Shown here: positions 856 through 63,538 of the stretch, in pieces
Layout: the number at the start of each line of letters is the position of its first letter
How positions within the stretch are numbered: the first letter of the stretch is position 1
Origin: Pelagomonas calceolata
Lineage: Eukaryota > Sar > Pelagophyceae > Pelagomonadales > Pelagomonadaceae
Length of the DNA stretch: 64,000 bases
Direction: 5' to 3'
Assembly (NCBI GenBank): GCA_918797485.1
Contig: CAKKNE010000004.1
Location: forward strand, 3,224,001-3,288,000
Notes under the pieces: model-generated
Told to the model about the DNA's origin: nothing
Databases searched by the model: none
What the model saw: only the letters and a program-made list of their open reading frames with translations
Program-made: the position numbers and the translations under genes

Positions 856-879
856 CCTAGTGTCTTACCGGCCGCTAGC
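856..879 (+). promoter_or_regulatory. CTAG element 1 (GTGTCTTAC orientation)
   Basis: CCTAGTGTCTTAC then CGGC then CGCTAGC. It lies about 120 bp upstream of the glycosyltransferase start at 734; the gene on its other side ends toward it (stop at 975). The rest of the 735-974 spacer holds only the duplicated segment at 774-811. Confidence 0.7.
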
Positions 880-974
880 AAAGCCGTGCACAAACTATAT
901 TCGCGCCAAACTTCAGGCAATTTTAACTGGCCCTAGCCGAATGAGAAAATTGTGCGCGGACATAACAAATCACA

Positions 975-2232
975 TCAATAAAGGTCGACGCTCCGCCCCG
1001 CGAAAGCCGCGTCGACGGCCTCGACGAGCTCGCCGAGGATCGCCTCGACCAGCCCGGGCGAAAAGCAGAAGTGCGTGCAGTCGCGGCCGCCCGGGTGCAA
1101 GTCCCAGAGCGGCTGCGTGAGCTCGTGGAGCCGGAGCATGCGCAGCCGCGGCGTCGGTCCGCCGGTGCGGTTCCCCTGGGCCGCGCGGAAGGCGTCCCAG
1201 GCGACGGCGTTGCGCCAGCCCGTGTCGAGCTCCGCCTCGGGGTGCTGCCGTCCCGCGCCGTGGCAGGACGCGTTGTGGAACGACGCCGGCACGCAGTTGT
1301 AGTGCGCGATGGGGCGCGCGCTGGATTTCATCCCAGATGCGAAGTAGCCGCCCGTCGTCGTCGCCTGTGTGGAAATCAAAATTTTACGGCGCGTTCCTCC
1401 ACGCCATCGACGCGACGCCTGCTCGATGGCGTGGCGATGCCGGTTCCGCTCGACCGAGCCACGACGGCCGCGTCATGCACCCGACGCACTGGTTGATTTC
1501 CACACAGATCGTCGCGAAGTGCTGGGCCGTCGTTTCCGCGTACAGGGCGACCGCGCCCGCGTCGACGGCCTCCATGAGGACGGAAAAGATGACCTTGAGG
1601 TGCGCCGCCAGCTCCGCGTGGTCGTGGTGGTGCAGCCCCATGTTCGCCACGAAGACAGTTTGGGAAGAGGCCGCGCCCACCACGCCCCGCTGCCACGCCT
1701 CGTTTTCGGTGGACGGTATTATAGGAGCCCCCGCTGGAAGCAGGCTTCGACGAGCGACGCCCAACTCATCGAAGGGACTGAAGCCGCAGTACTCTTGGCT
1801 CGTCTCGACGATCTGCCGCGCCACGGAGTCGCCCATCCACCGGACCAGAGTAATGTCGCGGCGCGCCCGCATCTCACGATACGCTCCGCAACGATTGGTC
1901 GCGTTGGGCCCGGGGAGCCAGCTCGGCCACGCGTAGGTCGACTTACGCGCCCGCAGCGCGGGCCAGCCCTCGTGCGGCCGGTTCGGTACCGCGTTCACGA
2001 ACTTCGGGCAGTCGTGGCGCGTCTGGTGCTTGCCGTCTTGCCGATGAGGCTTGCAGGCTTTTTTTGTGCAGTTGCCCGCCGTGAAGAGCAGGCAGGCCTC
2101 GCAGTCAGTGCGCGGCACGGCCGCCCAGACGGCGCGCTGCGCCGTGTCGTTCCGCGACGAGAGGTCGTAGGTGCGGCAGGCCCGCTCGGTCGCGCTGGCA
2201 GCAATGAGCGTGCAGAGCAGGTGCCGGATCAT
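975..2232 (-). CDS. PC-esterase / trichome-birefringence-like O-acyltransferase
   Basis: Two exons, 2232-1504 and 1364-975, give 372 residues. The N-terminus MIRHLLCTLIAASA is signal-peptide-like. RWMGDSVARQ (GDS at residues 134-136) and DCTHFC (D338, H341) are the two hallmark motifs of the PC-esterase domain (TBL/PMR5/Cas1p families), which O-acetylates polysaccharides in the secretory path. Many cysteines and an NAT glycosylation site fit a lumenal or secreted protein. The exons are separated by an introner (1365-1507) lying between the GDS and D-x-x-H motifs; joining ATC TGT to GCG ACG restores the frame. The N-terminal half is Cys-rich, a feature of the TBL N-domain. The acceptor polysaccharide cannot be told. 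Confidence 0.8.
1365..1507 (-). mobile_element. Introner element 1 (intron 1365-1503 of the PC-esterase gene)
   Basis: Perfect 15-bp terminal inverted repeats, CTGTGTGGAAATCAA and its complement, at 1365-1379 and 1493-1507, flanked by 8-bp target duplications (GTCGTCGC at 1357-1364, ATCGTCGC at 1508-1515, one mismatch). Inside is a hairpin with arms CCACGCCATCGA / TCGATGGCGTGG. On the coding (minus) strand the donor GTGGAA lies 4 nt inside the element and the acceptor ACAG is its last base. This is a non-autonomous DNA transposon acting as an intron, like the introners known from Aureococcus and Micromonas. Confidence 0.9.
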
Positions 2233-2353
2233 CTCTCAGCTGCAGCTGTCTATGCTGCGCGGCGACCGTGGATATGAGGAGGTACCCTATCCTCTTGCCG
2301 CAGCCATTGCCATTCGGCCTAGCGCCGATAGCAATCGAGTTGCCGAGTGATAT

Positions 2354-2390
2354 ATGGATCGCAGACGAAGGATTGGGCTGCCCGATGCAG
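2354..2390. repeat. Duplicated upstream segment, copy 2
   Basis: Near-identical partner of 774-811, upstream of the PC-esterase start at 2232 and about 40 bp from the CTAG element at 2432. Confidence 0.8.
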
Positions 2391-2431
2391 CGGATAGCGC
2401 GTGCCAGGCGCGACAAGTGACGGCTTGTATT

Positions 2432-2455
2432 GCTAGTGTCTTACAGGACGCTAGC
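2432..2455 (+). promoter_or_regulatory. CTAG element 2
   Basis: GCTAGTGTCTTACA, GGA, CGCTAGC. Centre of the divergent spacer 2233-2644: about 200 bp from the PC-esterase ATG on one side and 190 bp from the ATG at 2645 on the other. The spacer shows nothing else beyond the duplicated segment. Confidence 0.8.
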
Positions 2456-3412: not shown

Positions 3413-3472
3413 CACGGTGCGTAAGAAGACATATCGTATGAGTCCGACGTCGCGTCGATAGCGTTCCGCGCT

Positions 3473-3496
3473 GCTAGTGTGTTACAGGCCGCTAGC
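3473..3496 (+). promoter_or_regulatory. CTAG element 3
   Basis: GCTAGTGTGTTACA, GGC, CGCTAGC (one change from consensus). In the 312-bp gap between two plus-strand genes (stop 3412, ATG 3725), about 230 bp upstream of the second, so this copy can only serve one gene. Nothing else is seen in the gap. Confidence 0.75.
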
Positions 3497-3724
3497 TAAA
3501 TAGCCCAGTGCCAAAAAGTGGTGGACTGCGGCGCACAGATCGCTGGTACACCAGCCGTAGCGCGGTGGTTCGAACAGCGCCTGATCGCTGCTAGTGCTGG
3601 CGAAGAGAAAACGGCACCTCGCGCCGTAGCGTAGACAAAAAGCTCTTCAGACTCCCAGAGCCCCTGGCCGAAAAAAGCGCTCCGGCGAGGACAAAAGAAT
3701 AAAACACGAGGTCAAAAGCATAAA

Positions 3725-4774
3725 ATGGCCGCCCTCGTCGCCAGCCCAAACCAAGACACCCCTTTGGGAGGCGAAAACTACGTCGTCGTGACGATCGAGG
3801 AGGTCGAGCTCTCGCTGAACGCCGTCGTCGCCTTACCGAGCGACGACGAGGACGATAATGAAGGCGCCGCCGACGCCGCGCTGGAGGCGCGCGTGGCGGC
3901 GACGCAGCAGGTCGCCGACGTCCAGGAGCTCTGGATGTTAGATAGGTCCGCGAAGGCTCGAAGGGACGCGGCTTTGTTAGGCGGTTCCTCTGAAGCCGTC
4001 GTGCCCGAGGACGATGAACTGAGACGGAATCAATTACGGGCGTCCCTCATAACGAGGCAGGCGCCCTCACCACAATTGAATCCGCCGCCCTCGTTTACGA
4101 CGACCGACGACTTGGTCGCCCACGTCCAGGAGGGCGTCACGTACACGCACGCGGTCAAACAAAGCGCGACGAAACGCGACGGCGGCGAGGCGCAGTCGCG
4201 GAGGGACGTGGAAAGAGACCGGTTGTTGCTGGATGGGCGGGGGCCGGCGCTCGAGGGTGGTAGGGTCGGCTACGACCGCGTCGTCGCGTCGTTGGTGAGC
4301 GCGCAGCGGAAACTCGTGCAGCGGGCCGACGCGGCGGCCTGGCGCCAGAATGTAAATGATGCGACGTACGATGCCTTCGCCAAGGCGGCTCTGGTTGCGG
4401 TGAATCGCACGGAGAGCGGCGGGGCCGCCTTAGACGCGGTCGTCGCGACGGTGGCCGGCGAAGACGGTTCAAAACTATTAGTACCGGTGCCCGATTCCAG
4501 AAGAGCGGAACCTTTGAGGGTCCACTTGGATCTGGGGCCGTACGCTTGTGACGACGGCTGGCGCTGGGGCATTAGGGCAAGGGTCGAGGGCACGACGTTC
4601 TACCGCCTCTTCGCGCCGGACGACTTCGACGAGGAACGGTTGCGGTGTACGGCGCGCTACGCGAACGCGCTGCTGCTGCCGCTCGACGGGCTGGGCGCCG
4701 AGGCGGTCGTCCGGGACGCGTCACGCGCGAGCGTCGTCGTCGCGCTCGAGCCGCCGGATCCGAAGCAGGCGTAG
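3725..4774 (+). CDS. Conserved-looking unknown protein, 349 residues
   Basis: Starts MAALVASPNQDTPLGGENYV in context AAAATGGCC. The N-terminal third is acidic (PSDDEDDNEG near residue 40), the middle is predicted helical and charged, and the C-terminal 100 residues look like a compact beta-rich domain (LRVHLDLGPYACDDGWRWG, TTFYRLFAPDDFDEERLRC). No family motif is recognised. No signal peptide or membrane segment; likely cytosolic or nuclear. Confidence 0.6.
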   Translation: MAALVASPNQDTPLGGENYVVVTIEEVELSLNAVVALPSDDEDDNEGAADAALEARVAATQQVADVQELWMLDRSAKARRDAALLGGSSEAVVPEDDELRRNQLRASLITRQAPSPQLNPPPSFTTTDDLVAHVQEGVTYTHAVKQSATKRDGGEAQSRRDVERDRLLLDGRGPALEGGRVGYDRVVASLVSAQRKLVQRADAAAWRQNVNDATYDAFAKAALVAVNRTESGGAALDAVVATVAGEDGSKLLVPVPDSRRAEPLRVHLDLGPYACDDGWRWGIRARVEGTTFYRLFAPDDFDEERLRCTARYANALLLPLDGLGAEAVVRDASRASVVVALEPPDPKQA

Positions 4775-5069
4775 TCCCTCTCTCGTCGTGTGTATGTAGT
4801 AGTTTCCATTGGCCTGTGGTTTTACGCGGCGATGGCGTCCGGGCAAAACCTGTTTTGTTGCTCGAGTCTCGAGGCTGCAGCAAAGAGCGATTGCCGCGAT
4901 AGCCGTAGCCGCCCGCGTTCGTGAGTCGCTCCTTTCAAACGCCTCGAGACGCGCGAACGACGAGCCATCAATCTCTCGGCTCCTGCTGCACAGTTTTGCT
5001 TCAGTGATCCACAGGCGATTTTATTGTGAGGACCGGCGGAGCTGCGAGCTTAGATACACGATACAGGCG

Positions 5070-5486
5070 ATGCCCGAAGCCGCCGACGCGCCGGGCGCGG
5101 AGGAGGAAAAGGACGACGACGCGGGCCTGGGCGGGCTCTTCGACGACTCGCCGGACTCGGAGCCGGGTTCGCCACACATCATGAGCGCCGCCTGGGTCGA
5201 ACAAATGGCACGTGACCCAGGTTTCCAGCGGCATTTGCCTGGGATCGATCTCGCCTCCGCGCTGGCACGGATGGACCTTTCCCAGCGGGGTCAGGTCACA
5301 GAGCTCATAGCCAGGATCGAGGAACAGATGGCAAGAGCCGACGCGGAGGAAGCACGATGCGTCGCGACTGAGGCACAAATTGCCGAGGCAGTTAGACGAC
5401 GCGTTGCGGCGGAGGCACGAATTGCCGAGAGCAATAGACAAATCGCCGAGGAACACGCGAACGACCAATTCCCGGCAGGCGGGTAA
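5070..5486 (+). CDS. Small acidic, coiled-coil unknown protein
   Basis: 138 residues from ATG 5070 (MPEAADAPGAEEEKDDD). An acidic N-terminus with a Gly-Leu-Phe-Asp cluster (GLGGLFDDSPDSEPGSP) is followed by MSAAWVEQMARDPGFQRHLPG, faintly like an STI1-type helix, then an Ala/Glu/Arg heptad region to the C-terminus. The frame stays open upstream to about 4809 but the composition there is not protein-like, so the internal ATG is preferred. Its stop is 12 bp from the stop of the convergent next gene. The 295-bp gap 4775-5069 holds no visible feature. Confidence 0.45.
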   Translation: MPEAADAPGAEEEKDDDAGLGGLFDDSPDSEPGSPHIMSAAWVEQMARDPGFQRHLPGIDLASALARMDLSQRGQVTELIARIEEQMARADAEEARCVATEAQIAEAVRRRVAAEARIAESNRQIAEEHANDQFPAGG

Positions 5487-5498
5487 GAAATGATAAGG

Positions 5499-6428
5499 TT
5501 ACACGGCGAACAGCGCCTCCCACTTGTCCCCCCGCTTCGGCGGCGGTCGCTTCGGCGGCGGCTCGTCGACGTCCTCCGACGGCTCGACGACGACGCGCCG
5601 CTGCTTCCCGTCCACGTCCTCGAGCAGCTCCTCTGCCAGCGCCCGCGCGACGGGCGACCCGCGCCGGAGCGCCCGTCGCGACACGCGCCGCGCGGAGAGC
5701 TCCGCGGCACACAAACGCCCGGGCCCGGCCCAGGCCGGCGCCTCGCCGAGCCGCCGGTACGAGACGGCGTTCCGCGAGACGACGTATGATTCCCTACATT
5801 TCAGGCCCTTCTGCGCGCGCCGCGCCGCCGCCGTCTTCGCGCCGCCGACGCCGACGCCGAAGAGCCGCGCGAGGCCCCGCTTTTTGGGAGTCCCAACGTA
5901 GGCGTCGACTCTAGTTTCAAAGCCCTCGACGGCGAAGGTGGACACGCGCGGTTCCAAAGCTTTGTCTGCCGTCCGCGAACGGAGGGCCACCGTCGTGCCA
6001 TCGCGACGCAGTCCCAAGCGCACCGTCGCCGCGTAGGGCGGCGGCCGCGCTACGCTACGCGGCGGCGCGTCGGGCCGCGCGCGCCACTCGATGAGTTCGT
6101 CGCTTTCGTCGGCGTACGCGTACCTCCTTCGCACCTCGAACGCCCGCGGCTCTACCAAAAAGTCGTCGTCGTTCACATCATCCTCAGAATCGCCTCTTCT
6201 CGCGTCGCCCCGCAGCGCACGCGTCGCCTCGACGCCCTCGAGCCGCGCTATAACCACTCCCGTCGCCGGGTCCGTGAGCTGCCCGCTGCAGCGCCAGTAG
6301 TGCCACTGGCGCCCGCAGCCGAAGCGGGCGTCGCGCCATTTGTTAAATTGACGCGCGCGCGTGCGGAGCTTGTTGGCACATGCTGTTGTTGCCAGAAGTA
6401 ATAGCAGGCAGCGGCACGGCTTCGTCAT
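5499..6428 (-). CDS. Secreted or plastid-type unknown protein
   Basis: 309 residues from ATG 6428. MTKPCRCLLLLLATTACANK is a clear hydrophobic signal sequence, so the protein enters the secretory system or, in a red-lineage alga, possibly the plastid. The body begins FNKWRDARFGCGRQWHYWRCSG, then charged beta-rich stretches and a Pro/Lys-rich tail (EPPPKRPPPKRGDKWEALF). Overall layout (short W/G-rich start, interrupted beta strands) is loosely like DUF3598/lipocalin-type plastid proteins, but no diagnostic motif was found. An open frame continues upstream of 6428 across the CTAG element but is not credible as protein. Confidence 0.6.
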   Translation of the reverse strand: MTKPCRCLLLLLATTACANKLRTRARQFNKWRDARFGCGRQWHYWRCSGQLTDPATGVVIARLEGVEATRALRGDARRGDSEDDVNDDDFLVEPRAFEVRRRYAYADESDELIEWRARPDAPPRSVARPPPYAATVRLGLRRDGTTVALRSRTADKALEPRVSTFAVEGFETRVDAYVGTPKKRGLARLFGVGVGGAKTAAARRAQKGLKCRESYVVSRNAVSYRRLGEAPAWAGPGRLCAAELSARRVSRRALRRGSPVARALAEELLEDVDGKQRRVVVEPSEDVDEPPPKRPPPKRGDKWEALFAV

Positions 6429-6530
6429 GCTCAGCGAACGGCCGCACGGGTGCGCGCTGCAGCGATGCGATATCAGAACGGTCTGCGCGCGCGTCTGTGC
6501 AGCTGTGGGCGAGCTGTGCGGCTGAATGGG

Positions 6531-6553
6531 GCTAGCGGTGCGTAACACACTAG
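6531..6553 (-). promoter_or_regulatory. CTAG element 4 (slightly degenerate)
   Basis: GCTAGCG, GTGCG, TAACACACTAG. Lies between divergent genes, 103 bp from the ATG at 6428 and 135 bp from the ATG at 6688. Confidence 0.65.
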
Positions 6554-6687
6554 ATTTCTTTTTGCTTTGGGCTGCCCATCGCTGCCAAACACTGGCATAC
6601 GTGCTCGTCGGGCCCGCAGAATACGCTCCAGGCCGTTGAGGCTGCCCACTCCCACGCTTGCCGCCGCGGCAGCAAAGACAGACAGCC

Positions 6688-7563
6688 ATGGCACCCGCTC
6701 CCCCAAGCAAGGAGCTCTCCAGCCTCGAAAGCACGATAATCGGAGGCATCACTGGGAGCATCGCGGAAGCAGTGGTCATGCCGGCATTGGTCATCAAGAC
6801 GAGGATGATGGCCCAAGGCGCCGACGCGTCGCTCACGAGCTACCGGAGCGCCGCCCATGCTGCCTCGACCATGCTCCGCGACGAAGGGTTTGGCGCGTTC
6901 TACAAGGGGCTCGGTCTCTCTGTAGTATTCACTCCGTTAGCGCGCGGTTTGTACATGACGGGCATCGAAATGAGCCATTCGACCTTCGGCTCCGGCACTT
7001 CCGCGACGGATTTTGCGGCCGGGATGAGCGCCCAGCTCGTGTCGTCGATCGCGTACGTGCCCCGCGATATTGTGGTGGAGCGCTGCGCCATCGACGGCCA
7101 GATCGCCAAGCAGGTCGGCTCGACGGCCTCGTCGCTCGCGGCTCTGCGTACAATTTTCTCGACGGAGGGCGCCATGGGCTTCTTCCGGGCCTTCGTGCCG
7201 CACCAGCTCGTCTGGGTGCCCTTCAACGGCATCTTCATGTGGGCCCTGGGCCGGTGCAAGCAGTTCGGAGACGGTGAGCAGACCTACATAAGGGGCGTCG
7301 GGAACACGTTCTGCGCCGCGGCCTTCGCCGCCGCGTGCACGAACCCGATCGACGTCATCAAGACGCGGATGCAGATCGCCGGCGCGAACACGGAGGTCTT
7401 CGCCTACTCAGGACCGGCGGACTGCCTGAAGCAATTGATAAGGAAGGAGGGCGTGCGCGCCCTCTTCGCCGGCATCGGCGGGCGCTTCCTCTACACCGGC
7501 CCGGCCTTCGCGATCTTCTTCCCGACCTACGATTTGCTGAAGACGGCGTACGTGGCGCTGTGA
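6688..7563 (+). CDS. Mitochondrial carrier family (SLC25) protein
   Basis: 291 residues, the normal length for a three-repeat carrier. Signature motifs: MPALVIKTRM (repeat 1, without the usual acidic residue after Pro), VPRDIVVERCAI (repeat 2), NPIDVIKTRMQ (repeat 3), each followed by a helix and an EG-x-x-A/G-F-[YF]-x-G type loop (DEGFGAFYKGL, EGAMGFFRAF, KEGVRALFAGIGGRF). It should sit in the mitochondrial inner membrane and exchange a metabolite or cofactor; the substrate cannot be assigned. Start chosen at 6688 (ACAGCCATGG) rather than the in-frame ATG at 6658. Confidence 0.9.
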   Translation: MAPAPPSKELSSLESTIIGGITGSIAEAVVMPALVIKTRMMAQGADASLTSYRSAAHAASTMLRDEGFGAFYKGLGLSVVFTPLARGLYMTGIEMSHSTFGSGTSATDFAAGMSAQLVSSIAYVPRDIVVERCAIDGQIAKQVGSTASSLAALRTIFSTEGAMGFFRAFVPHQLVWVPFNGIFMWALGRCKQFGDGEQTYIRGVGNTFCAAAFAAACTNPIDVIKTRMQIAGANTEVFAYSGPADCLKQLIRKEGVRALFAGIGGRFLYTGPAFAIFFPTYDLLKTAYVAL

Positions 7564-10864: not shown

Positions 10865-11029
10865 GGCTGCAGCTTGACACCGGCAGTGCAGCGGTGCCGC
10901 ACGCTGTCGCGGCGATGGCGTTGGGTGCAGCAGCGACGTGCAGTTGAGACGACCACGATCCGGTGTCTGAGAATCTCCTGGAGCGATGCGTACAGGCACA
11001 CTGTACAGGCACGCTGCTGTCCCGGCAGA

Positions 11030-11050
11030 GCTAGCGTCTTGACATACTAG
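11030..11050 (-). promoter_or_regulatory. CTAG element 6 (degenerate)
   Basis: GCTAGCGTCTTGACATACTAG, between the divergent methyltransferase (166 bp) and myosin (284 bp) starts. Ends fit the consensus, the middle only partly. The remainder of the 469-bp spacer shows no feature. Confidence 0.4.
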
Positions 11051-11333
11051 GCTCCGAGACGACTGCTCCCGCAACCTGTCCAAGGGACGTGTCCTCGACA
11101 CGTAGACAACTCCCTACCTCCGGCCTCTCCAAGACATCTTAAAGCTTCGGGCTTTCGATCATCTCGCGGGCGTCGCCGCGCGGGCCTTCGGACTAGCTGC
11201 GGACGTGCGCGGGCAGCTTCTCGACGCAGCCCCCAACATCTAAAGAGATCGCCAGTGCACTCGAGCGCTGCGCGCGAACGCAAGGGCGCGCGCGCGGCAC
11301 AGGACCAGCTAGAAGCCAATCCAGCCCCCAAGC

Positions 11334-20382: not shown

Positions 20383-20481
20383 GGCTGCGGCTGAAGCTGT
20401 GCTGACTGCTGCTTGCGTGCCGTGGTCCAGGAAGGCCCACGCTGTACACAAGGCAAAGCCAAAGCGCGCTCCCCGGAATTA

Positions 20482-20505
20482 GCTAGCGGTCTGTAAGACA
20501 CTAGC
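20482..20505 (-). promoter_or_regulatory. CTAG element 7
   Basis: GCTAGCG, GTC, TGTAAGACACTAGC. Midway between divergent starts: 100 bp from 20382 and 123 bp from 20628. Confidence 0.8.
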
Positions 20506-20627
20506 ACGCTCTCAGACGGCTTTTCACCAGCGTGGCGGCTGTTGTGAGCGGCTAGAGTACGCTGTCGTGACGGCAGGAGAGCCTCCATACACCCCTGCTG
20601 CTGCACGAGCGGCTGCGCCATTCATAA

Positions 20628-24176: not shown

Positions 24177-24339
24177 TCTCGTGGGCGCACGCGCAGATTT
24201 TGTAAGAGGAGCGCGCACGCTGTAGCGTGGCTCGCCCCCACGCCTCGCCCCCCATTCCCCAAGAAGTAAGTGCAAAGAAAACTATAAAAAGGACTCTCTT
24301 GCACTAGTGTATTTTTGTTACGGTGAAGGCCTCTGGCCC

Positions 24340-24364
24340 GCTAGCGGAACGTAAAGACACTAGC
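24340..24364 (-). promoter_or_regulatory. CTAG element 8
   Basis: GCTAGCG, GAACG, TAAAGACACTAGC. In the 331-bp gap between two plus-strand genes, 144 bp upstream of the ATG at 24508. An ACTAGTGT half-site lies 33 bp before it. Confidence 0.7.
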
Positions 24365-24507
24365 AAGCTGCCACACGAGCGGCTGCTCAGCGTTGTACGT
24401 GACTGACTGGACAGCACCAACTACCGAGCAGTAGTGCAGCCGAAGACGCTTCGGCGCAGCGAGATCCAGCGCTAGCGATTGCACCCGTGACAACCTGAAA
24501 CCTGACC

Positions 24508-39296: not shown

Positions 39297-39319
39297 GCTA
39301 GCGTCGATAAACGTACTAG
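39297..39319 (-). promoter_or_regulatory. CTAG element 13 (degenerate)
   Basis: GCTAGCGTCGATAAACGTACTAG. Central in the 398-bp divergent spacer, 191 bp from ATG 39106 and 186 bp from ATG 39505. Ends match, middle is diverged. Confidence 0.5.
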
Positions 39320-39504
39320 TTTTGTTAGCAGCCGAACTTGCCAAAAAGCGCCAGTGCACGGCGCGATTGGACCGGTAGACATAGGTAAACCGCTAAGGCG
39401 TAAGCCCATCCACAGGGGATTGCTATTCCCAAGCAGCAGAATCGCTGCGGCCGCCCCGGCTGTGTTCGGCTGCCTCGCTTCCAGAGAGAGCATTCCGTAA
39501 CTTA

Positions 39505-44158: not shown

Positions 44159-44289
44159 CGTCGCGGACGCCGCCGGGGCAGCCTGTTGACGGTCCGGAGG
44201 CCGCCTGGGCAGCTGCCTTCCGAGGCGTCGAGCCGTCAAGGCCGCTGGCAGACGGATTTAACTCACAGCGCGCGGTTGGCGTTTTGCTT

Positions 44290-44312
44290 GCTAGTGTCTT
44301 ACATCCGCTAGC
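44290..44312 (+). promoter_or_regulatory. CTAG element 14
   Basis: GCTAGTGTCTTACA, TC, CGCTAGC. Central in the 298-bp divergent spacer, 132 bp from ATG 44158 and 145 bp from ATG 44457. Confidence 0.8.
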
Positions 44313-44456
44313 AACGCCGGCTTTTCACAGCGCTGGCTTGTCGAGGTACAGCTGTCCGGAGGCCGCATCGGTGGTTGAACGGACGCACGGATCGCAGCGC
44401 TCGGCGCAGCGGCAAGCGCAGGTAACGCCGACGACGTGTGCCCTCCAACAACGAGT

Positions 44457-45821: not shown

Positions 45822-45841
45822 GTTGTGTTTTTGTATCTTAC

Positions 45842-46099
45842 TCACCTACCCACCTTTTCCGCCGCTTTATATCGGTCGATAAACTTCTCCACACCTCCTA
45901 TCATCTCACGTAGTCTTTCCCTGGCTCGCACGTCGGGCAGGACCGCCGGGTCATCCCACTTGCCTGAAGCGCATAAATCGAACAACTGCAACGGTATGGA
46001 CTCGCCCACACCGTCCCAGCGGCGCGCTAAGAGGGGGCAGCATTGCGCGTGATGCGAAAAATCCAAGGCTTGACACTCCTCCTCGCAGTAGCGAGCCAC
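45842..46099 (-). pseudogene. MYND-finger fragment
   Basis: About 85 codons: ARYCEEECQALDFSHHAQCC is the second half of a MYND finger (Y-C-x2-E-C-Q ... H-x3-C-C), followed by a helical tail (ERLREMIGGVEKFIDRYKAAE). No ATG precedes it in frame (a GTG only) and the first C-x2-C half is not found upstream on this strand. It is either the last exon of a gene whose 5' exon was not recognised or a remnant. MYND genes elsewhere in the window show the family is multi-copy. Confidence 0.4.
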
Positions 46100-46507
46100 C
46101 GCGTGAAACGCGTCGGGAGAAAACGCGTCCGCGGTCCGCCGCGAATATTTGCGTCGGGGTTCGATAACTTTTCCTCTTTTCGCTCAGCGCCGATGCATAT
46201 GACCCTGGGGCCCCGCCGGGGCGCCTCGGACCAGCCCCGCTTTCGTCCAGCGGCGAGCGCGGCGCGTTACGAGGCGAAAGCAGGGTTCGAGAACGAGCGA
46301 ATACGGCACCGTTTTGAGCGCTGTAAGTTACGAGGGGCAAGTCACGGCCCACGTAGAGCCTGTCGCGCGGCCCAGGCCTTGGACGTGCAAGACGGGCCGA
46401 GCAATATCGATTTTTTCTCGAGCGAGGCGCGAGCGAGCCGCAAGGAAAACCTGCAATTAAATTAATAGCTAAAAAATAGGCAAGCTCAAGGGGGGGTAAA
46501 TCGCGGA

Positions 46508-46530
46508 GCTAGCGGCATGTAAGACACTAG
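46508..46530 (-). promoter_or_regulatory. CTAG element 15
   Basis: GCTAGCG, GCA, TGTAAGACACTAG. 196 bp upstream of the small membrane protein ATG at 46727. The rest of 46100-46726 shows no gene or RNA. Confidence 0.8.
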
Positions 46531-46726
46531 GAACATAGCCCCAAGGCAAAAGCAGAGTGCTACGAGCCATATAAGTCGATAGCGGTGGTCAGAGCAGCGC
46601 AAACGTATTGGACAGCTGGGTGGGCTCAAGACTTGCAGCACTGCGCGACGCCACCACGCAATAGCAGCAGCAGCATAAAAAGCAGACAGCAGCACAAATC
46701 GCCGCGGCGGCGCAAGCGACGCACAA

Positions 46727-46941: not shown

Positions 46942-47550
46942 ATGCCGCCTCGCGTTTACATCCCTGTGACCGTCCAAGACGAGTCTGAGAGACCACGGTC
47001 GCCACGCGGCCTCGGCGCCGTCGTCAGCGCGGGCCTGATGTCTGCGGACGACGGCCCGCCCGAGTGGCGCGAGAAGATCTTCGGCTCCGCGTGGTGGTAC
47101 CGCTGGTCTTCCTTCGCCTACTGCCTCGCCGGCGGGCTGCTCGTCATTAGACCAGCACCGATGTACCGGCACGCGCGGCCCTGCTGCTTTCTTTTCCCGT
47201 TCCGCTCCATGGGCGCGCTGATCTTTTTGAACGGTATCCTGTCGTACCTGGCCGACACGCACACCTTTGGCCGACCTTCCGCGTGGCGGGCGGCGGACTC
47301 TTACGTGGCGACGTTCAACACGATCCTACAGTTCGTGCTAATTTTGCTGCAGATCATCGGCCCGATGTCCTTCCCACGCGACATGGTGACCGTCTTCACG
47401 GCGTCGCTGCTCGTGGCGATAGCGTGCAAGCGCCGCGCCGTCGCCGCATTCGCGCGCCGAGACCGCGACGCGTACCTCGTCTGGCACGCGCTCTGGCACG
47501 TCGTGCTGCCCGCGGGCGCCGTCGCGGGGCAGCTGCTCTTGGAGCCGTAG
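46942..47550 (+). CDS. Multi-pass membrane protein, possibly CREST-like
   Basis: 202 residues with about five hydrophobic helices: FAYCLAGGLLVIRPAPM, MGALIFLNGILSYLADTH, TILQFVLILLQIIGPMSF, VTVFTASLLVAIACKRR, and HALWHVVLPAGAVAGQL. A Ser/Asp pair (SYLAD) in one helix and H-x3-H (HALWH) in the last recall the CREST (alkaline ceramidase/PAQR) superfamily metal site. The assignment is tentative. Starts 26 bp after the preceding stop, with no promoter element between. Confidence 0.5.
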   Translation: MPPRVYIPVTVQDESERPRSPRGLGAVVSAGLMSADDGPPEWREKIFGSAWWYRWSSFAYCLAGGLLVIRPAPMYRHARPCCFLFPFRSMGALIFLNGILSYLADTHTFGRPSAWRAADSYVATFNTILQFVLILLQIIGPMSFPRDMVTVFTASLLVAIACKRRAVAAFARRDRDAYLVWHALWHVVLPAGAVAGQLLLEP

Positions 47551-47594
47551 CTCGACGCTGTTTAATTTTTTTCTACAAGTATCGAACCTAACGT

Positions 47595-47900
47595 ATGCTA
47601 GCGGCGTGTAAGACACTAGCAAGCCTGGTAACAAAAAGTACCAACGCGGCCCGCGGCGGCAGCGTCGCCACCGTGCGACGACTCCATGAACTCGGGGCTC
47701 CCTGCGCCGTCGGGTGCGAGATCGAGACGAAATGGTATGATCCGCGCACCTGGCTCAGCGACGTGTACGAGGGCGACGGGAGTTTGTGTCCCCTCCGCGT
47801 CGCGGCCGATGCGGGCCACGCCGACGTCGTCGCGTTCCTCGCCGAGCTGCTGCCCGACGTCGACCCGGCCACCGGCAAGCGCCAGACGAAAGAGCTCTAG
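47595..47900 (+). CDS. Ankyrin-like small ORF beginning at a CTAG element
   Basis: 101 codons: MLAACKTLASLVTKSTNAAR, then ankyrin-like RRLHELGAPC and LRVAADAGHADVVAFLAELLP. The ATG overlaps the first base of the CTAG element at 47597, whose sequence is read as LAACKTLAS. If the element is a promoter, a transcript starting downstream would lack this ATG and there is no later in-frame ATG, so this may be a gene remnant or start elsewhere. Confidence 0.35.
   Translation: MLAACKTLASLVTKSTNAARGGSVATVRRLHELGAPCAVGCEIETKWYDPRTWLSDVYEGDGSLCPLRVAADAGHADVVAFLAELLPDVDPATGKRQTKEL
47597..47620 (-). promoter_or_regulatory. CTAG element 16
   Basis: GCTAGCG, GCG, TGTAAGACACTAGC, perfect core. In the gap after the multi-pass protein's stop, overlapping the start of the ankyrin-like ORF. 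Confidence 0.75.
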
Positions 47901-48004: not shown

Positions 48005-49561
48005 CTACATGCCCGGCCCGAAGTCGAAGGCCTTCTGCGGCGTGTTCTGCGCCACCCCAAAGGCGAAGTTGTTGCCGATCGTTTCCGGCGCCACGTTAAC
48101 ATCTTCCTCGTCAACTCCGAAATACGTCTCCAGCACTCTGACGGCCTTCTCGTAGATGTCATTGTTGTCGTGCTGCTGGAGGTCCTCGATCTTCTTCAAG
48201 CCTTCACTGTCGGCAATATGATTGGCCATCAAGTTATGGCCGCCCATTTGTTTCGACTCCGCGTCGCCGACCTTGAGGATGTTTTCTAGGGCCTCTAACG
48301 CTACGATGATGATCTTGACGTCCGCGACACTGAGCAGTTCGCATAGGGGCGGGATGCAGGCCTGGCTCACGAGGAATTTAATTTGTTCCGGGGTTCCGCC
48401 AGAGGTAGCGTTGGAGATGGCCCACGCGGCCTCTTTTCTGATGTCGAATTCCGCACTATTCAATAAATTGACCAATGGAGGAATGACATTCGCGTCCACG
48501 ACGGACTGGATCTGGTCCTTATTACCCGCCGTGATGTTGCTGATCGTCCAGCAGGCCTCTTTTCTGATACCCTTCTTGGGATTACCTAACAGTGCTAACA
48601 AGCAAGGCAGCGCCGAGAAGTTGATGATGATCTGCGTCTGTAAATCATCACCGGTCACGATGTTGCCTACGGTCCTTAGAGCAGGGGTCTGCACCGACGG
48701 CGACGGGTGCATGAGCAGTTCCACCAATCTTCTACATACACCAGCTTCGATGACGGCCTGGATCTTCTCATTAGGACCATCAGATAAATAGGATAAGGCC
48801 CAGCACGCGTCCGTCAGGACCTCTTCGTCCGGGGAGTAAATTAATTGTGCTAGGGTAGGTAAGGCGGGCCTTACTGTCCCGAACTCGGGCTGCGGCTTGC
48901 CTCGGCAGAAGTTCGAGAGGGTCCACGTCGCGTTCCTAAGCATGCTCAGCTTGGAATTCTCATGCAATTGCTGCAACAGGGGCTGCATCGCGCCTTCTCG
49001 CAACACTAAGTCGCGACACGTGGGAGAATCACCAGCAATATTCCCCAAAGCCCAGACGGCCTGCTCCCGCACGTCATCGTTCGGCGACAAGAGCAATCTA
49101 CAGAAGATGGGCACGGCACCTTCCTCAATCACCACGCGCGTGTGGTCCGAGGTCCCGGACGCAATGTTCGTCAGCGCCCAGGCCGCCTCGAACTGCAACG
49201 CCGGCGCGTCGTCCTTTTGTAAGAATTGCACTAAGCGAGGCACGACGCCGGCGTCGATGACCGTCTGGATGGGCGGATTCCGTTCGATCGATAAGAGTTT
49301 GCGGAACTGCGTCGTCGCCTCCAAATGCACCGAGGGATCCATACTATGGACGCCCGCGACCAGATTAGGCAGCTGCTCCAGCTTCTGGACGACCGTCGCG
49401 TCCATCTGCGCGGGCGTCTGGCCCTGCGCCGGCCGCTGGACGCCCTGCCGCCTTTTATTCATGCGCTCCTCCTTCTTGGACTTGCGGATCTGGATCGTCG
49501 TCTCCTCCCGCCGCCTCCGCGAGTCCTCGGCGGAGATGCCGGCCTTGAACTGGCTCTTGCG
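48005..49561 (-). CDS. Importin subunit alpha (5' exon not resolved)
   Basis: 519 codons including stop from the exon start [18 protein letters not shown]. The importin-beta-binding N-terminus (basic [19 protein letters not shown]) is followed by about ten armadillo repeats: [69 protein letters not shown] and so on, with conserved Trp/Asn ladders that bind nuclear localisation signals. The ORF continues upstream only by a GTG, and the preceding sequence TGATTTCCACGCAG is an introner-type acceptor, so the initiator ATG is in an upstream exon (one candidate ATG at 49811). Confidence 0.93.
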
Positions 49562-49575
49562 CTGCGTGGAAATCA
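49562..49575 (-). mobile_element. Introner-type 3' end upstream of importin-alpha
   Basis: On the coding strand TGATTTCCACGCAG directly precedes the first conserved importin-alpha codons, matching the right terminal repeat of introner 4 with CACGCAG in place of CACACAG. The left end of this intron was not found, so its extent is unknown. Confidence 0.55.
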
Positions 49576-49893
49576 CCGGATGAGAGCGGCGGGCGCGGGG
49601 TTTCAGGGGACGGCTCTCTTCTCTAGACGAACGAGCGCGCGCGGCTGCGGCGAGCAGCGCGCGGCTGTGGGAAGGGCGCTCGCCGGGCCCGGCCCGCCAG
49701 CGCTGCGCTGCGCGTCGTTTCGGCCGCCAGGCTCGCCACAGAGGGATTGGGTAGGGCGCGTGCTGCGGACGCCGAGAGCCTCGCGTCGCTTGGCCTTGCG
49801 AACCCGCTCATATTTGCTTAATTTCTTGCCTCTACTGAGCCCTCCTGCCCTGGCTTTAGGCTCTGCGCGGGCGTGTGTGGAAGGTCTCGGCTA

Positions 49894-49916
49894 GCTAGTG
49901 TCTTACAGACGCTAGC
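49894..49916 (+). promoter_or_regulatory. CTAG element 17
   Basis: GCTAGTGTCTTACA, GA, CGCTAGC. In the 651-bp region between importin-alpha and the divergent PUB protein, 312 bp from ATG 50228. The rest of the region contains the probable importin-alpha 5' exon and no other feature. Confidence 0.8.
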
Positions 49917-50227
49917 TGCCAACCGTCGCAAACGACAGCCGTCGAACGGGCTATTGCCGAGTCCCCGAGAGGTCCTGGATACGCCTGCTCGAATTTGTGA
50001 GGCTGTCGAGACCAGCAAAATAGCAGGCCCAGGCAGGCCAAAAAAACAAGGTCCGCCGGCGTACCGTTACGCGCGGAGCGTTTTTAGAATCATTTGTTGT
50101 CGTGCGTCGTCGTGGCGCGGCGGCGGCACCGCTCGTCGGACTGTGTACAAAAGCTCTCACAGAGAGCATTGTGAGACGCATTGATTAATCGGCCGCCGCG
50201 GCGACGCGCGCGGACCAATTGTGCGCG

Positions 50228-51232
50228 ATGAATAGCGCCATGAAGGCCCTCGCCGCCGAACGCGCCGCGAGGAACGGTAGCGCCCTCCCGCGCCAGACGC
50301 CGAAGCCGGCGCCCCAAGGTACCCGCGTCGCGTTCACCGGCCAAAGAATCAAGGCCGAACCGAAAGCGATGTTCGACAAAGAACTCAATAGCGTCCCGCG
50401 CGGTCACGAGCCGCGCATAATCAAATTTCCTGGCGGCCGCGCCGCGCCGTTCCGACTCACGACTCGCACACGTGTGACGAGTCACTTGTTGATTTGCACA
50501 GGCCTCGAGGACCTCGTGAAGCCCCTGCCCCCGGGCGACGCCTCGACGGTGCACACGCGCATCCTCGGCGTCGCCCAGAACATCCTCGACGCGCCCGACG
50601 ACATGTCGGCCAACGGGCCACGAGTAGTTAACAAGGAGAAGTTCCTGCGAGCCCTCAAAGGCGCGCGCAAGCCCGAGGACTTGCTCAAGCGCATCGGCTT
50701 CGCGACGCGCCGCGGCGCCGACAAGCACGGCAAGCAGGTCGACTGGCTCGTGTTGGATGTGGTCAACGAGACGGAAAACGCGCCGTCGGACCTCCAGAAG
50801 CTGAAGCGCATCGCGAAGGCGATCCAAGATGCGGAGGCGCGCAACGCCCCGAAAGCCCACCAGTCGCGCGCGGACGCGGACGCGCAGGACCGGACGCGCA
50901 TCCTGCGCAACATGGCCGAGGACCGCATGGACGTGAGCGCGAAGAAGCCCAAAAAGACCGCCCCTACGCCTCCGCCTCCGCCGCAGCTGATCGTGCGCGT
51001 CCGAAGGGCCGACGGGTCCGTGACACGCGTGGCCTTCGACGGCGCCCCGACGCTCGACGACCTCCGCGCGCGGAGCGGCGCAGCCGAGCTCTTCGCCGAC
51101 GAGGCATTGACGCGGGCGTGCGCCGCCGCGGACCTGGTGCACGGCGCCGTCGTCTACGCTCCGCCCGACGGTGACGCCGTGGCGGACGGGGAGGAGGGCG
51201 GCGACGCCATGGTGGGGGAGGAGGAGGGCTAG
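50228..51232 (+). CDS. PUB-like and ubiquitin-like domain protein
   Basis: 334 residues from ATG 50228. Residues about 108-190 (VHTRILGVAQNILDAPDDMS ... PEDLLKRIGFATRRG) match the PUB pattern (N-I-L-x-x-P-D-D, then L-L-x-x-I-G-F), a p97/VCP-binding domain. The C-terminal part (QLIVRVRRADGSVTRVAFDG) looks like a ubiquitin/UBX-type beta-grasp. Together they suggest a p97 cofactor in the ubiquitin-proteasome pathway, inferred. A Pro-rich linker joins them; the tail is acidic. Confidence 0.6.
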   Translation: MNSAMKALAAERAARNGSALPRQTPKPAPQGTRVAFTGQRIKAEPKAMFDKELNSVPRGHEPRIIKFPGGRAAPFRLTTRTRVTSHLLICTGLEDLVKPLPPGDASTVHTRILGVAQNILDAPDDMSANGPRVVNKEKFLRALKGARKPEDLLKRIGFATRRGADKHGKQVDWLVLDVVNETENAPSDLQKLKRIAKAIQDAEARNAPKAHQSRADADAQDRTRILRNMAEDRMDVSAKKPKKTAPTPPPPPQLIVRVRRADGSVTRVAFDGAPTLDDLRARSGAAELFADEALTRACAAADLVHGAVVYAPPDGDAVADGEEGGDAMVGEEEG

Positions 51233-52172: not shown

Positions 52173-52282
52173 TTCTCTTCACCGCCTTGCGAAGGTTACA
52201 AGAGATGAAATGAGCAAATCTGGATGCAAACGGCTGCTCCGCGGCGGAGTTTTGGACGTGAATCTGAATCCCGGCTTGGCTT

Positions 52283-52307
52283 GCTAGTGTCTTACCAGGC
52301 CGCTAGC
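52283..52307 (+). promoter_or_regulatory. CTAG element 18
   Basis: GCTAGTGTCTTACC, AGGC, CGCTAGC. 111 bp from ATG 52172 and 169 bp from the ATG of the small plus ORF at 52476. The 303-bp spacer holds nothing else. Confidence 0.8.
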
Positions 52308-52475
52308 TCGATCAGGTCATTAATTACGACCGAGATAAGGCTCGCATAAGTTCTCGCGCCGATAGCGTTTGTCGCCTTATCTCGCGTAGTCGCCCACAAC
52401 TCGCAGTCCGGTCAAAAAACCGCCGCGGCACGTATTCCTTGAGCCAGGTCAAAGAGAGCAAAAAAAAGGTCACAA

Positions 52476-52757
52476 ATGCTCGCGACGCTCGCAAGCGCCG
52501 CCGCCGCGCCCCCGCTAGCACCGCCAGGCGCCGCCGATGCGCCGACACTAGACTTGTATGTGGGTGACGAGCGCCGGACCACCATCACAACAACCTTCGG
52601 CACCGCGACCGAGGCCCTCGCGGCCGCCGTCCTGATGCGGCCCGGGGTCCAGACGACGCGTAATCAAATTTTGTTAACAAGGCCTGCACTTGGGTCGGCT
52701 TTGCTGCTATCCTCGCGCGCGTTTCGCTACCAAATATTGGACATGCGATTGCTTTGA
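52476..52757 (+). CDS. Small hypothetical ORF
   Basis: 93 codons, MLATLASAAAAPPLAPPG then TLDLYVGDERRTTITTTFG. It has an ATG 169 bp after a CTAG element, but the last third looks non-coding, so the real gene may end sooner or have a spliced 3' part. No domain. Confidence 0.35.
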   Translation: MLATLASAAAAPPLAPPGAADAPTLDLYVGDERRTTITTTFGTATEALAAAVLMRPGVQTTRNQILLTRPALGSALLLSSRAFRYQILDMRLL

Positions 52758-52942
52758 GTGGAAACGACTCCTTTTTCGCGCGAGCCGACCTCACAACAAA
52801 TTATGGTGCACCTCGACCTCTTTGCCATTAACATGCAAGCCCCAAGGCGTCCAAGCCATCTGTCTAGAAGAGAGTAGAGCCGTCGGGATGCGTGTGCGAG
52901 GCCTCTTTGCCGAAACATATCGATATGTCTGTGGACGTGTGA

Positions 52943-52965
52943 GCTAGCGGTGTAATGCGGAGCTC
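52943..52965 (-). promoter_or_regulatory. CTAG element 19 (half-site only)
   Basis: GCTAGCGGTGTAATGCGGAGCTC; the left half fits, the right end is GAGCTC rather than CACTAGC. 198 bp upstream of the ATG at 53163. Remaining 405-bp gap shows no other feature. Confidence 0.35.
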
Positions 52966-53162
52966 ACCGCGCTCGCAGTTCTGCGCGCCGTCGTGACCTA
53001 ACTAGAGGCGAAAAACACAGCGCCAAAGGTGAGCAAGCACTGCGCAACGCGCCGAGCCACCAGTCGGCGCAGCAGCCGAGAAACCGTGAGAGCGCCAGGA
53101 CGCTCTCCGGTGCCGCGCGCGAAATTAGAACGAACCGCGCGAGCGCCACACACGGAAAACCG

Positions 53163-61320: not shown

Positions 61321-61607
61321 GGTCGCGGCGGGTCGCGTTCGGTGCCGCGGTTTTTACTGCGTGCGCTGTTGCGCTGGTGCGGCGCGGTCGTCGCTCGTCC
61401 CGCGAGGGTTATGCGCACTCGCAAAACGCCCCCGAGTCACCGCGCGCGGCCGGGTCTCTTGGGTGGTGCAGGTGGAGCTTACGAGGCGCGCTCGGCGACG
61501 CTCGCTTGCGCCAGAGAGCACTGTTGGCTAGCGCCCGCAAGTGTTAAATCGCCGAAACTCGCGCGCGTCGTCGTGCACGGCTGCCGCGTCCAAGCCAGCA
61601 TTTTCTG

Positions 61608-61630
61608 GCTAGTGTCTTACTGCCGCTAGC
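61608..61630 (+). promoter_or_regulatory. CTAG element 20
   Basis: GCTAGTGTCTTACT, GC, CGCTAGC. In the 419-bp divergent spacer, 288 bp from the AP-4 start and 110 bp from ATG 61740. Nothing else seen. Confidence 0.8.
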
Positions 61631-61739
61631 TTGCGCTGCGGCCTTGACAAGTGATGCGAGGAAGGACCCGTGAGCGGTTTAGGCAATCGTTCGATCGCTG
61701 GGGTCAGCTGTACAGCAGCAGACCAGCATTATTGCAGCA

Positions 61740-62828
61740 ATGGCAGAGCTTGTTTCGCAGCAGTCGAGCAGCCCTGTCTACCGCGCCGCCTGCGAGCTGG
61801 CGGCGTATCGTCTGCGCGACGCGCTGACTGACAAACCGTTCATAGAGTACGACAGTAGCCTCAGAACGGTGCTGCTGCGGTGCCTGCCGGATGAGGTCGC
61901 TAGCATCGCTGTGTGTTCGGCGGTCGACGGGTCTCGCGCACTGCTGCATCGTGACGCTGTGAGCGGTCCCGGGTATGTCTTGGACACGGCGACGAAGACG
62001 TCGCCGCCGTGGCTGAAGCGCTGCGGCCTCGAGCCGGGCTGGAGCCGGCCGTACACGGACCCCGACACGCAATCGGTCGTCATAAGCTTCGTCGCACCGC
62101 TCGTGCGGGACGGCAAGGTCGTCGCCGCCGTAGCGGCGGGCTCGATCCCCGTCGGAGCGCGTGCAAGCAAGAAGCGGCCCGCGGCGCCCGCGTGGCTCTC
62201 CGTGACGGAGCCGCGCCTGCGGAGCCGACTCCTGTATCCGAATCCGGTTTGTTTGCTGACGACGTGGGGCGAGGTCGACGGCTCATGGCGCAAGAACGTC
62301 ATGACCATCTCGTGGCTGACGTGCCTGAACAACGACGCCGACGTCCTCCTGTCGATCAACGCGCGGCGGCACAGCGCCGCGGCGGTGCTGTCCGGGCGGG
62401 CCTTCGGCCTCTCCGTGCCGACGTCCGATCTGGCGGCAATGGTTCTGAAAATCGGCGCCTGCTCCGGCAGTAAAACGGACAAGCTCGCGACGGTCGAGGG
62501 CTTGGCCGCCGTCGAGGCCGACGCAGAAGCCAAGGCCGGCAAGGGCGGCTTCGCGGCGCTCATGAGCGACTCGTCGGACGACGACGACGGCGTCGCGGCG
62601 CCGCCGGACGCGCCATGGTTCGTCGAGGGCTGCGTCGCGCGGCTGGCCTGTGTGGTGGAGAGGCGCCTGACAGAGGGCGAGGACCACCACGTCGTCGTCG
62701 CCAAAATCACGGACGCGTCCGTGCGCGAGGACTACTGGGACGGCAAGACGTTCCGCGCGCCCCACGGCCGGGCGCCTTTCTTGTCTTTCCTCGGGTCGCA
62801 GAGCTTCGGGCACACAGTTCAATCATAA
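61740..62828 (+). CDS. Flavin-reductase-like FMN-binding protein with N-terminal extension
   Basis: 362 residues. The split-barrel FMN domain runs about 165-275: RLLYPNPVCLLTTWGEVDGS, RKNVMTISWLTCL, DADVLLSINARRHSAAAVLSG, FGLSVPTSDLAAM, in the DIM6/NTAB flavin reductase pattern. The first 160 residues (EYDSSLRTVLLRCLPDEVASI, VISFVAPLVRDGKVVAAVA) may be a PAS/Cache-like sensor; the pairing is unusual. An acidic insertion (SDSSDDDDG, about 280) lies near the end of the domain. Stop is 4 bp from the p23 stop. Confidence 0.75.
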   Translation: MAELVSQQSSSPVYRAACELAAYRLRDALTDKPFIEYDSSLRTVLLRCLPDEVASIAVCSAVDGSRALLHRDAVSGPGYVLDTATKTSPPWLKRCGLEPGWSRPYTDPDTQSVVISFVAPLVRDGKVVAAVAAGSIPVGARASKKRPAAPAWLSVTEPRLRSRLLYPNPVCLLTTWGEVDGSWRKNVMTISWLTCLNNDADVLLSINARRHSAAAVLSGRAFGLSVPTSDLAAMVLKIGACSGSKTDKLATVEGLAAVEADAEAKAGKGGFAALMSDSSDDDDGVAAPPDAPWFVEGCVARLACVVERRLTEGEDHHVVVAKITDASVREDYWDGKTFRAPHGRAPFLSFLGSQSFGHTVQS

Positions 62829-62832
62829 AAAT

Positions 62833-63333
62833 TTATTCGGCACTAGGCTTGTCGAGCCCGCCATCCAAGTCGGACAGGTCGACGTCGTCATCGCTGTCCG
62901 GCTCGTCGGCCGCCACCGCGCTAGCTGGCGCGAACGAATCCGCGCCCTGTAACGCCGACATGTCGAAGGCGCCCGCGTCGTCCTCCTCGTCCTCGTCGAC
63001 GTAGCGGCTCCAGTCCGTGGCCACGTGTCTCTTCTCGAAAACTTTATCATTTGTCAAACGGCACCAGTGGTCCGCCTCCTGGTCCTTCTTCACGACGTGC
63101 ATCTGGATCGACCTCCCATGCACCTTCCAGACCGACTCGTCGGGGAGGACCTCGGCCGCGAACGTGACGTCGAAGGCGTACTTCTTCTCGTCGGCGTCGC
63201 ATTGGAATTTTAGAGTTGTGCTTTGCAAATCAACGGTAACGCCCGTCGCTTCGGCTACTTTTATCACAACGTACAAGCCGTCCTTGCGCTGGCTCCACTC
63301 GATGGGCGGTACTATCGTGGCCAGGGCTGCCAT
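62833..63333 (-). CDS. Hsp90 co-chaperone p23 (CS domain)
   Basis: 166 residues. CS/p23 beta-sandwich about 8-115: PPIEWSQRKDGLYVVIKVAE, LKFQCDADEKKYAFDVTFAAE, and the signature Trp motif DHWCRLTNDKVFEKRHVATD WSRYV. An acidic C-terminal tail follows. p23/Sba1 stabilises the ATP-bound Hsp90 closed state. CTAG element 21 is 182 bp upstream. Confidence 0.92.
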   Translation of the reverse strand: MAALATIVPPIEWSQRKDGLYVVIKVAEATGVTVDLQSTTLKFQCDADEKKYAFDVTFAAEVLPDESVWKVHGRSIQMHVVKKDQEADHWCRLTNDKVFEKRHVATDWSRYVDEDEEDDAGAFDMSALQGADSFAPASAVAADEPDSDDDVDLSDLDGGLDKPSAE

Positions 63334-63514
63334 TTTTGGTGCTGGAGGCTGTCTTGGTCCTGGAGGCTGTGTAAGTGTCCGAAGCGATGGAGTGCTCTCT
63401 CAAGATTCGCGCAGAGCACCTCTGGCAAAGTCCTGCACCAGCACTGAAGCTCTATTGGCAAATCTGTGAGAGTTTGCACAGGTTCCAAGCCGCGGAGTTC
63501 CAGGGCATAATAAT

Positions 63515-63538
63515 GCTAGCGGCTTGTAAGACACTAGC
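63515..63538 (-). promoter_or_regulatory. CTAG element 21
   Basis: GCTAGCG, GCT, TGTAAGACACTAGC. Divergent spacer 63334-63822, 182 bp from the p23 start and 285 bp from the ATG at 63823. An ACGCCATCGACGCG stretch (introner core) lies at about 63777 in the 5' region of the right-hand gene. Confidence 0.8.

Follow-up and report, generated by a model that had tools for sequence, protein, structure and literature searches.

A bipartite CTAG element of about 24 bp, a probable protein-binding site at promoters of Pelagomonas calceolata

Pelagomonas calceolata is a tiny and very abundant ocean alga. We describe a DNA element of about 24 bp that recurs along a 64-kb stretch of its genome (C4:3224001-3288000, hereafter the window) and consists of a 13-base left half, GCTAGTGTCTTAC, a short spacer, and a right half, CGCTAGC. 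A previous reading of the window from its letters alone (the sequence-only reading) had taken this element to mark divergent promoters between positions 856 and 63538, a span that we find to be correct. The genome comprises 32,445,274 bases in 8 contigs; for P. calceolata RCC100, the part of PMC9481584 on which we draw (the papers cited below were likewise covered in part) gives 32.4 Mb in six nuclear contigs, a plastid and a mitochondrial genome, a GC content of 63%, 16,667 genes, and 0.45 introns per gene. The GC content of the window is ∼0.63.

Genes were predicted with home-made models, using an intron-aware coding hidden Markov model trained on the window and on C1:2000001-2200000 (200 kb, hereafter the C1 sample, GC 0.64), which together form a 264-kb survey. 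The models over-call introns, predicted exons shorter than 60 bp were dropped when gaps between genes were classified, and same-strand gap counts at the matrix cut-off include gaps called intronic. Elements were scored with a matrix built from 41 survey sites with at most 3 edits, applied to the same region with a cut-off of 10. The window then holds 19 elements: 14 of its 16 divergent spacers and 5 of its 20 same-strand gaps have one, its 15 convergent gaps and its coding sequence none. The sequence-only reading had counted 15 strong and 6 weak copies and 15 of 17 divergent spacers, a difference due to gene models and cut-off; its further statements, that the element also lies upstream of tandem genes and is absent from tail-to-tail gaps and essentially from coding sequence, hold up. 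The elements are listed here by window position, with the gap that holds each, the neighbouring genes recognized by Pfam, and the quality of the match.

856-879, plus strand: element in same-strand gap 705-989, gene model doubtful; 1 edit, spacer 4, matrix 38.1
2432-2455, plus strand: element in divergent spacer 2233-2644; exact, spacer 4, matrix 39.3
3473-3496, plus strand: element in same-strand gap 3413-3724; 1 edit, matrix 34.9
6531-6554, minus strand: element in divergent spacer 6429-6777, right gene a mitochondrial carrier; 2 edits, matrix 30.1
11030-11051, minus strand: weak element in divergent spacer 10865-11333, between BMT5-like and myosin head genes; matrix 16.2
20482-20505, minus strand: element in divergent spacer 20383-20627; exact, matrix 38.9
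24340-24364, minus strand: element in same-strand gap 24177-24507; 2 edits, spacer 5, matrix 35.5
26412-26435, plus strand: element in divergent spacer 25980-26608; exact, matrix 38.2
29059-29080, minus strand: element in divergent spacer 28824-29233, right gene a phosphopantetheinyl transferase; 3 edits, matrix 23.5
32775-32798, plus strand: element in divergent spacer 32476-32863, between RING_4 protein and TPR-MYND genes; 2 edits, matrix 36.8
34873-34895, minus strand: element in divergent spacer 34683-35093, right gene NFACT; exact, spacer 3, matrix 38.3
39297-39320, minus strand: weak element in divergent spacer 39095-39504, left gene a Nas2_N protein; matrix 15.2, ends set from the matched letters
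44290-44312, plus strand: element in divergent spacer 44159-44456, between SH3 protein and ALG11 genes; exact, spacer 3, matrix 41.3
46508-46531, minus strand: element in same-strand gap 45822-46726; 1 edit, matrix 38.2
47597-47620, minus strand: element in same-strand gap 47547-47638, the preceding open reading frame (ORF) ending at 47550; exact, matrix 42.3
49894-49916, plus strand: element in divergent spacer 49554-50239 (a predicted 23-bp exon, 50071-50093, was dropped), left gene an Arm-repeat protein; exact, spacer 3, matrix 36.6
52283-52307, plus strand: element in divergent spacer 52173-53162, right gene a Myb/Agenet protein; exact, spacer 5, matrix 40.1
61608-61630, plus strand: element in divergent spacer 61321-61739, between adaptin (AP-4 epsilon-like) and flavin reductase genes; exact, spacer 3, matrix 38.3
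63515-63538, minus strand: element in divergent spacer 63334-63822, left gene a CS-domain protein; exact, spacer 4, matrix 40.1

Seventeen elements in the window have both halves within 3 edits, and the 13-mer taken singly gives 27 matches there at up to 3 mismatches (10 of them exact) where 9.4 are expected, a count reached by none of 100 shuffles. Genome-wide, the exact 13-mer occurs 1,741 times (869 + 872 by strand), whereas about 0.5 copies are expected from composition and the reversed control has none, so the element is real. Followed by CGCTAG after 0 to 6 bases it is found 1,544 times (766 + 778; control 0), and with at most 2 mismatches 4,347 times (2,221 + 2,126) against 298 for the control (159 + 139). 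Extrapolation from 30 matrix matches in 200 kb puts the total at ∼4,900 elements. The reversed two-half pattern has no match at up to 4 edits in the window or the C1 sample, five permuted patterns combined have one at up to 3 edits, and viral contigs contain no exact match to two element patterns.

In the 41 matrix sites, the columns CTAGTG and CGCTAGC are 95–100% one base, the right half being no less fixed than the left, which has a weaker CTT ahead of it and A/G behind. The spacer had been given as 2–4 bases, and mostly is: among the 100 matches listed, all on contig 1, it measures 4 (69), 3 (21), 2 (5), 0 (3), or 5 (2) bases, and 5 also occurs in the window. The two halves carry 23.3 + 13.2 bits, about 36 in all, a value biased upward by the edit limit; locating ∼4,000–6,000 sites takes 13.4–14.0 bits. 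Together the ends, GCTAGTG / CGCTAGC, make up an imperfect inverted repeat, and the arms are heterotypic in 29 cases in 264 kb, while the two symmetric (palindromic) forms number 0 and 1.

Over the 264-kb survey, 49 elements reach the matrix cut-off, occupying 27 of 59 divergent, 21 of 131 same-strand, and none of 57 convergent gaps, with none in 195 kb of coding sequence. The C1 sample by itself gives 13/43, 16/111, and 0/42 gaps and again no coding match, although lower cut-offs admit one coding match there at score 8 and two at score 6. Counting instead by edits (at most 3), there are 25 divergent, 8 tandem, and 8 called-intronic sites, with none in the 57 convergent gaps or the 195 kb of coding sequence, which corresponds to 0.94, 0.56, and 0.38 elements per kb of divergent, tandem, and called-intronic gap. 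In a second set of loci, the first 30 exact 13-mer matches of contig 1, of which L027 and L028 mark a single site, 19 lie in divergent and 11 in same-strand gaps, with none convergent or coding. Divergent and convergent gaps differ at Fisher P 3e-10, without correction for the shorter convergent gaps; these total only 6.6 kb, making absence from them (P about 8e-4, 71 rows) weaker evidence than absence from coding sequence. The window is unusually rich: the genome mean predicts 3.4 exact 13-mers and it has 10 (P 0.003), and elements occupy 14/16 of its divergent spacers against 13/43 in the C1 sample (Fisher P 1e-4).

An unseeded k-mer list of divergent spacers has element words on top; with same-strand gaps included, the first place passes to an intron word. 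In the window and the C1 sample, same-strand gaps (introns included) show strong enrichment of overlapping words of ACGCCATCGACGCG; these words are probably the introner family, and introner-type introns have been reported in P. calceolata (PMC9481584). A search for a second motif in the 28 divergent spacers >40 bp that lack the element (matrix <8) yielded nothing beyond GC-rich words and weak signals, GGCTGCCC among them. We also observed a tandem pair of exact elements, C1:575887 and C1:575924, 37 bp apart in one divergent spacer. The region C1:2520000-2927000 holds 2 exact 13-mers against about 24 expected (P 1.5e-8), and is possibly the low-GC centromere region described in PMC9481584.

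Elements in gaps called intronic mostly appear to follow the end of a gene: the preceding frame stops ahead of the element in 15 of 16 such gaps, two of which hold a predicted exon <60 bp and are treated as divergent elsewhere. Among intronic-called gaps of the window and the C1 sample, 8 of 12 with an element and 19 of 104 without have a stop no more than 30 bases from the exon end, and gene boundaries are therefore likelier at element gaps, which is not proof for any single gap.

Distances were taken from the element to predicted start codons, not to transcription start sites (TSSs). In the 27 divergent gaps (54 arms) the median is 194 bp and the 10th–90th percentile range 113–334 bp, with the element more central than a uniform draw (Kolmogorov–Smirnov P 0.015). 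In same-strand gaps, 19 of 22 elements lie 142–432 bp ahead of the next predicted start, the rest at 17, 47, and 1,703 bp. A hand tally over the same-strand gaps of the edit-based count and of the second set of loci gives 12 elements sense to the downstream gene and 15 antisense (P 0.70). Use of either orientation, as first described, is thus confirmed, and the range of start distances on both sides becomes roughly 100–330 bp where it had been given as mostly 100–250. The side of the 3′ half is slightly nearer its gene (medians 174 versus 210 bp, P 0.04), and over 71 rows GC content dips at the element from 0.62–0.69 to 0.54–0.60 within 100 bp.

The genes served are varied. A Pfam scan of 36 window ORFs gave 21 with at least one family at E 1e-3 (some under Pfam's own cut-off) and 15 with none, and element neighbours range over unrelated functions, including mitochondrial carrier, phosphopantetheinyl transferase, RING_4, NFACT, ALG11, Arm-repeat, adaptin, and CS-domain proteins. 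One element-bearing divergent spacer, 25980-26608, also contains a tRNA gene (26017-26089, minus strand, Rfam tRNA 49.5 bits) whose predicted anticodon, UUA, would pair with the stop codon UAA; yet predicted genes >150 aa end in that codon more often than in any other (61 of 131). Gene order in the window and the C1 sample alternates strands: of 148 predicted neighbour pairs, 32 share a strand (P 2e-12), or 40 of 156 if the 8 intronic-called gaps with an element are counted as tandem.

The element is also present in a sister pelagophyte. An exact scan of prokaryote contigs yielded six element matches, in marine metagenome-assembled genomes (MAGs). Contigs of the Spirochaeta MED672 MAG (L051, L054, and others) align in order to P. 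calceolata, mostly at 79–94% identity, and therefore belong to a misbinned related pelagophyte; parts of L052 and L056, from two further bacterial MAGs, are 90–96% identical to P. calceolata. The match in L053 (GC 0.40, spacer 0) looks like chance, this contig and L055 being outside the comparison with the P. calceolata genome. The sister has at least 7 elements in the loci examined. Both of its readable orthologous spacers keep the element amid poorly alignable flanks, and in one the element is displaced by 57 bp relative to a conserved TAAG. In the other, the element at L054:5353-5375 and its ortholog in L057 stand in opposite orientation but share their short anchors, with CACCTCGTCGC preceding by 36 and 31 bases and CAGCCG following after 6 and 9; this is one case of an imperfect palindrome inverted in place. 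By alignment position, the remaining five sister elements fall within blocks that match P. calceolata or at their margins.

We consider it probable that the element is the DNA binding site of one dominant, lineage-specific protein, or of a fixed pair, that marks and opens nuclear promoters in pelagophytes, and we favour a role at shared promoters resembling that of a general regulatory factor. Such a protein would contact two modules, GCTAGTGTCTTAC and CGCTAGC, separated by a short spacer of flexible length, and clear a nucleosome-poor gap ∼100–330 bp upstream of start codons. Transcription would then start on either side of the element, so that one site could serve two divergent genes; the same site would also work ahead of a single gene in tandem arrays. 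We infer the protein binding, the nucleosome exclusion, the bidirectional activation, and the single binder alike from the pattern of the sites: a near-invariant, asymmetric, two-module motif, free in orientation, flexible in spacer, and associated with promoters fits the kind of site expected of a multi-contact DNA-binding protein or heterodimer. The role of general regulatory factor is consistent with use in either orientation (12:15) at many unrelated genes with diverse Pfam families, and that of bidirectional promoter with enrichment in divergent gaps (27/59) over convergent gaps (0/57) and coding sequence (none in 195 kb).

Several observations count against this interpretation or narrow it. 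Compared with other noncoding DNA, divergent gaps show a moderate surplus, with 25 of 41 sites falling in 39% of the bases (P 0.006). The element is missing from 32 of the 59 divergent spacers (3 of the 59 gaps are ≤40 bp) and is therefore not required for divergent transcription, and some copies may be genuinely intronic. Retention in two sister spacers is a modest result with weak statistics, because elements fill nearly half of divergent spacers anyway. Base skew provides no TSS marker, since A over T rises only gradually toward the ATG, alike with and without an element, and no TSS position can be inferred from it. Finally, the information content exceeds what location needs, a surplus that a single ordinary factor does not explain; it suggests two proteins reading the element, or a very long recognized site. 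On its placement among predicted genes, then, the element is associated with promoters more than strictly with divergence: its proposed role as a mark of divergent promoters stands as an enrichment in an unusually rich window, being neither exclusive (21/131 same-strand gaps) nor universal, and what survives of the original reading is a promoter-associated site, probably of a dominant factor, common to divergent genes.

A bolder form of the favoured interpretation is that a lineage-specific, long-site DNA-binding protein or fixed heterodimer acts as a genome-wide promoter organizer in pelagophytes. The ∼36-bit imperfect inverted repeat would stand at several thousand promoters without regard to orientation, its palindromic ends would permit in-place flips without loss of function, and one site would serve two strand-alternating genes. 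We put this forward tentatively, as a possibility that we would sooner doubt than assume.

The strongest competitor, though an unlikely one, is a boundary or architectural site, for which BEAF-32, CTCF, and ZNF143 are models, that separates divergent genes or organizes loops with only secondary effects on transcription; a variant is a replication-origin site placed in promoters. Concentration between head-to-head genes would suit it, as would a long, bipartite, information-rich site of the sort that zinc-finger arrays prefer. Presence in 21 of 131 same-strand gaps argues the other way, and one site per 7–8 kb, as estimated, is dense for origins. Slightly less likely again is a true core-promoter element that places the pre-initiation complex with set spacing and direction, as Inr, TATA, and the oomycete INR/FPR motifs do. 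Such an element would likewise stand ahead of many unrelated genes. Yet orientation in same-strand gaps is not fixed (12 sense, 15 antisense) and distance to the ATG is broad (113–334 bp, 10th–90th percentile), so a strict core-promoter reading, one of those first offered, is not favoured; the oomycete core motifs, by contrast, are oriented and close to the TSS (PMC3599244).

We regard as highly improbable a short dispersed repeat, left by a transposon or introner as its terminus or footprint and spread by copying without regulatory selection. Thousands of near-identical copies, information above the need of a factor site, the introner-type introns reported for this species (PMC9481584), and the enriched intron-gap word would all be expected of it. 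However, when the flanks of 70 sites are compared after masking, 8 pairs are similar at E 1e-3 and the set as a whole has no common flank, coding sequence and the 57 convergent gaps are free of the element, and in two cases the sister keeps it despite diverged flanks. One of the 8 pairs, C1:2086824 and C1:2092743, is 93% identical over 374 bp on one side only, probably by local duplication. We rejected a transposon or repeat origin because the 70 masked flank sets have no sequence beyond the 24 bp that runs through them all. Weakest of all is an RNA hairpin (GCUAGUG-loop-CGCUAGC) in 5′ leaders, whose arms could pair with one G-U around a loop of variable length: it is rejected because arm changes go uncompensated (the outer pair is altered in 14 of 71 rows, broken in all 14, and compensated in none, while the T-G pair is never C-G and is T-A in one row), and the element lies upstream of genes in both orientations and the tRNA is the only Rfam match of the window.

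A nearly invariant short sequence at probably several thousand promoters offers a handle, as a 24-bp probe with which to fish for the binder, and a basis for designed promoters in genetic tools. In annotation, it can be used to split neighbouring genes that intron-happy models have fused. Its excess of information, together with the in-place flip, raises the question of how a long site is kept and moved.

A promoter site common to divergent genes is a known kind of element; this particular sequence, and the scale of its use in this lineage, seem not to have been described before. The literature matches listed, with subscription papers, supplements, and most preprints outside their scope, include no description of the element sequence or of such a pelagophyte or stramenopile promoter motif, in line with the sequence-only reading. 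Term look-ups in the portions of two Pelagomonas papers that we drew on (PMC9481584 and PMC13284251) likewise return none. Abf1, Reb1, and Rap1 of budding yeast are similar in having dispersed promoter sites, the factors themselves, in the accounts partly covered here, being abundant and tied to nucleosome-depleted regions. Sites for yeast general regulatory factors tolerate either orientation and are common to divergent genes, and that of Abf1 is bipartite, but they carry far less information than the Pelagomonas element. In Drosophila, sites for BEAF-32 and other promoter-proximal boundary proteins are, like the element, concentrated between head-to-head genes, and differ from it in sequence. 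The Sp1/GC-box of Amphimedon offers a parallel in a compact genome with many bidirectional promoters and one leading motif that is more frequent in bidirectional promoters (about 36% versus 29%); it differs in being a GC-rich box of a known factor family, for which the sections of PMC4773876 drawn on describe no long bipartite structure (PMC4773876). Among stramenopiles, the oomycete INR, FPR, and DPEP motifs resemble the element as lineage-specific promoter motifs found at a minority of genes, but they are short, near the TSS, and oriented, with forward-to-reverse ratios of 5.9 to 1.8, and the patterns given in the part of the source covered are dissimilar to that of the element (PMC3599244).

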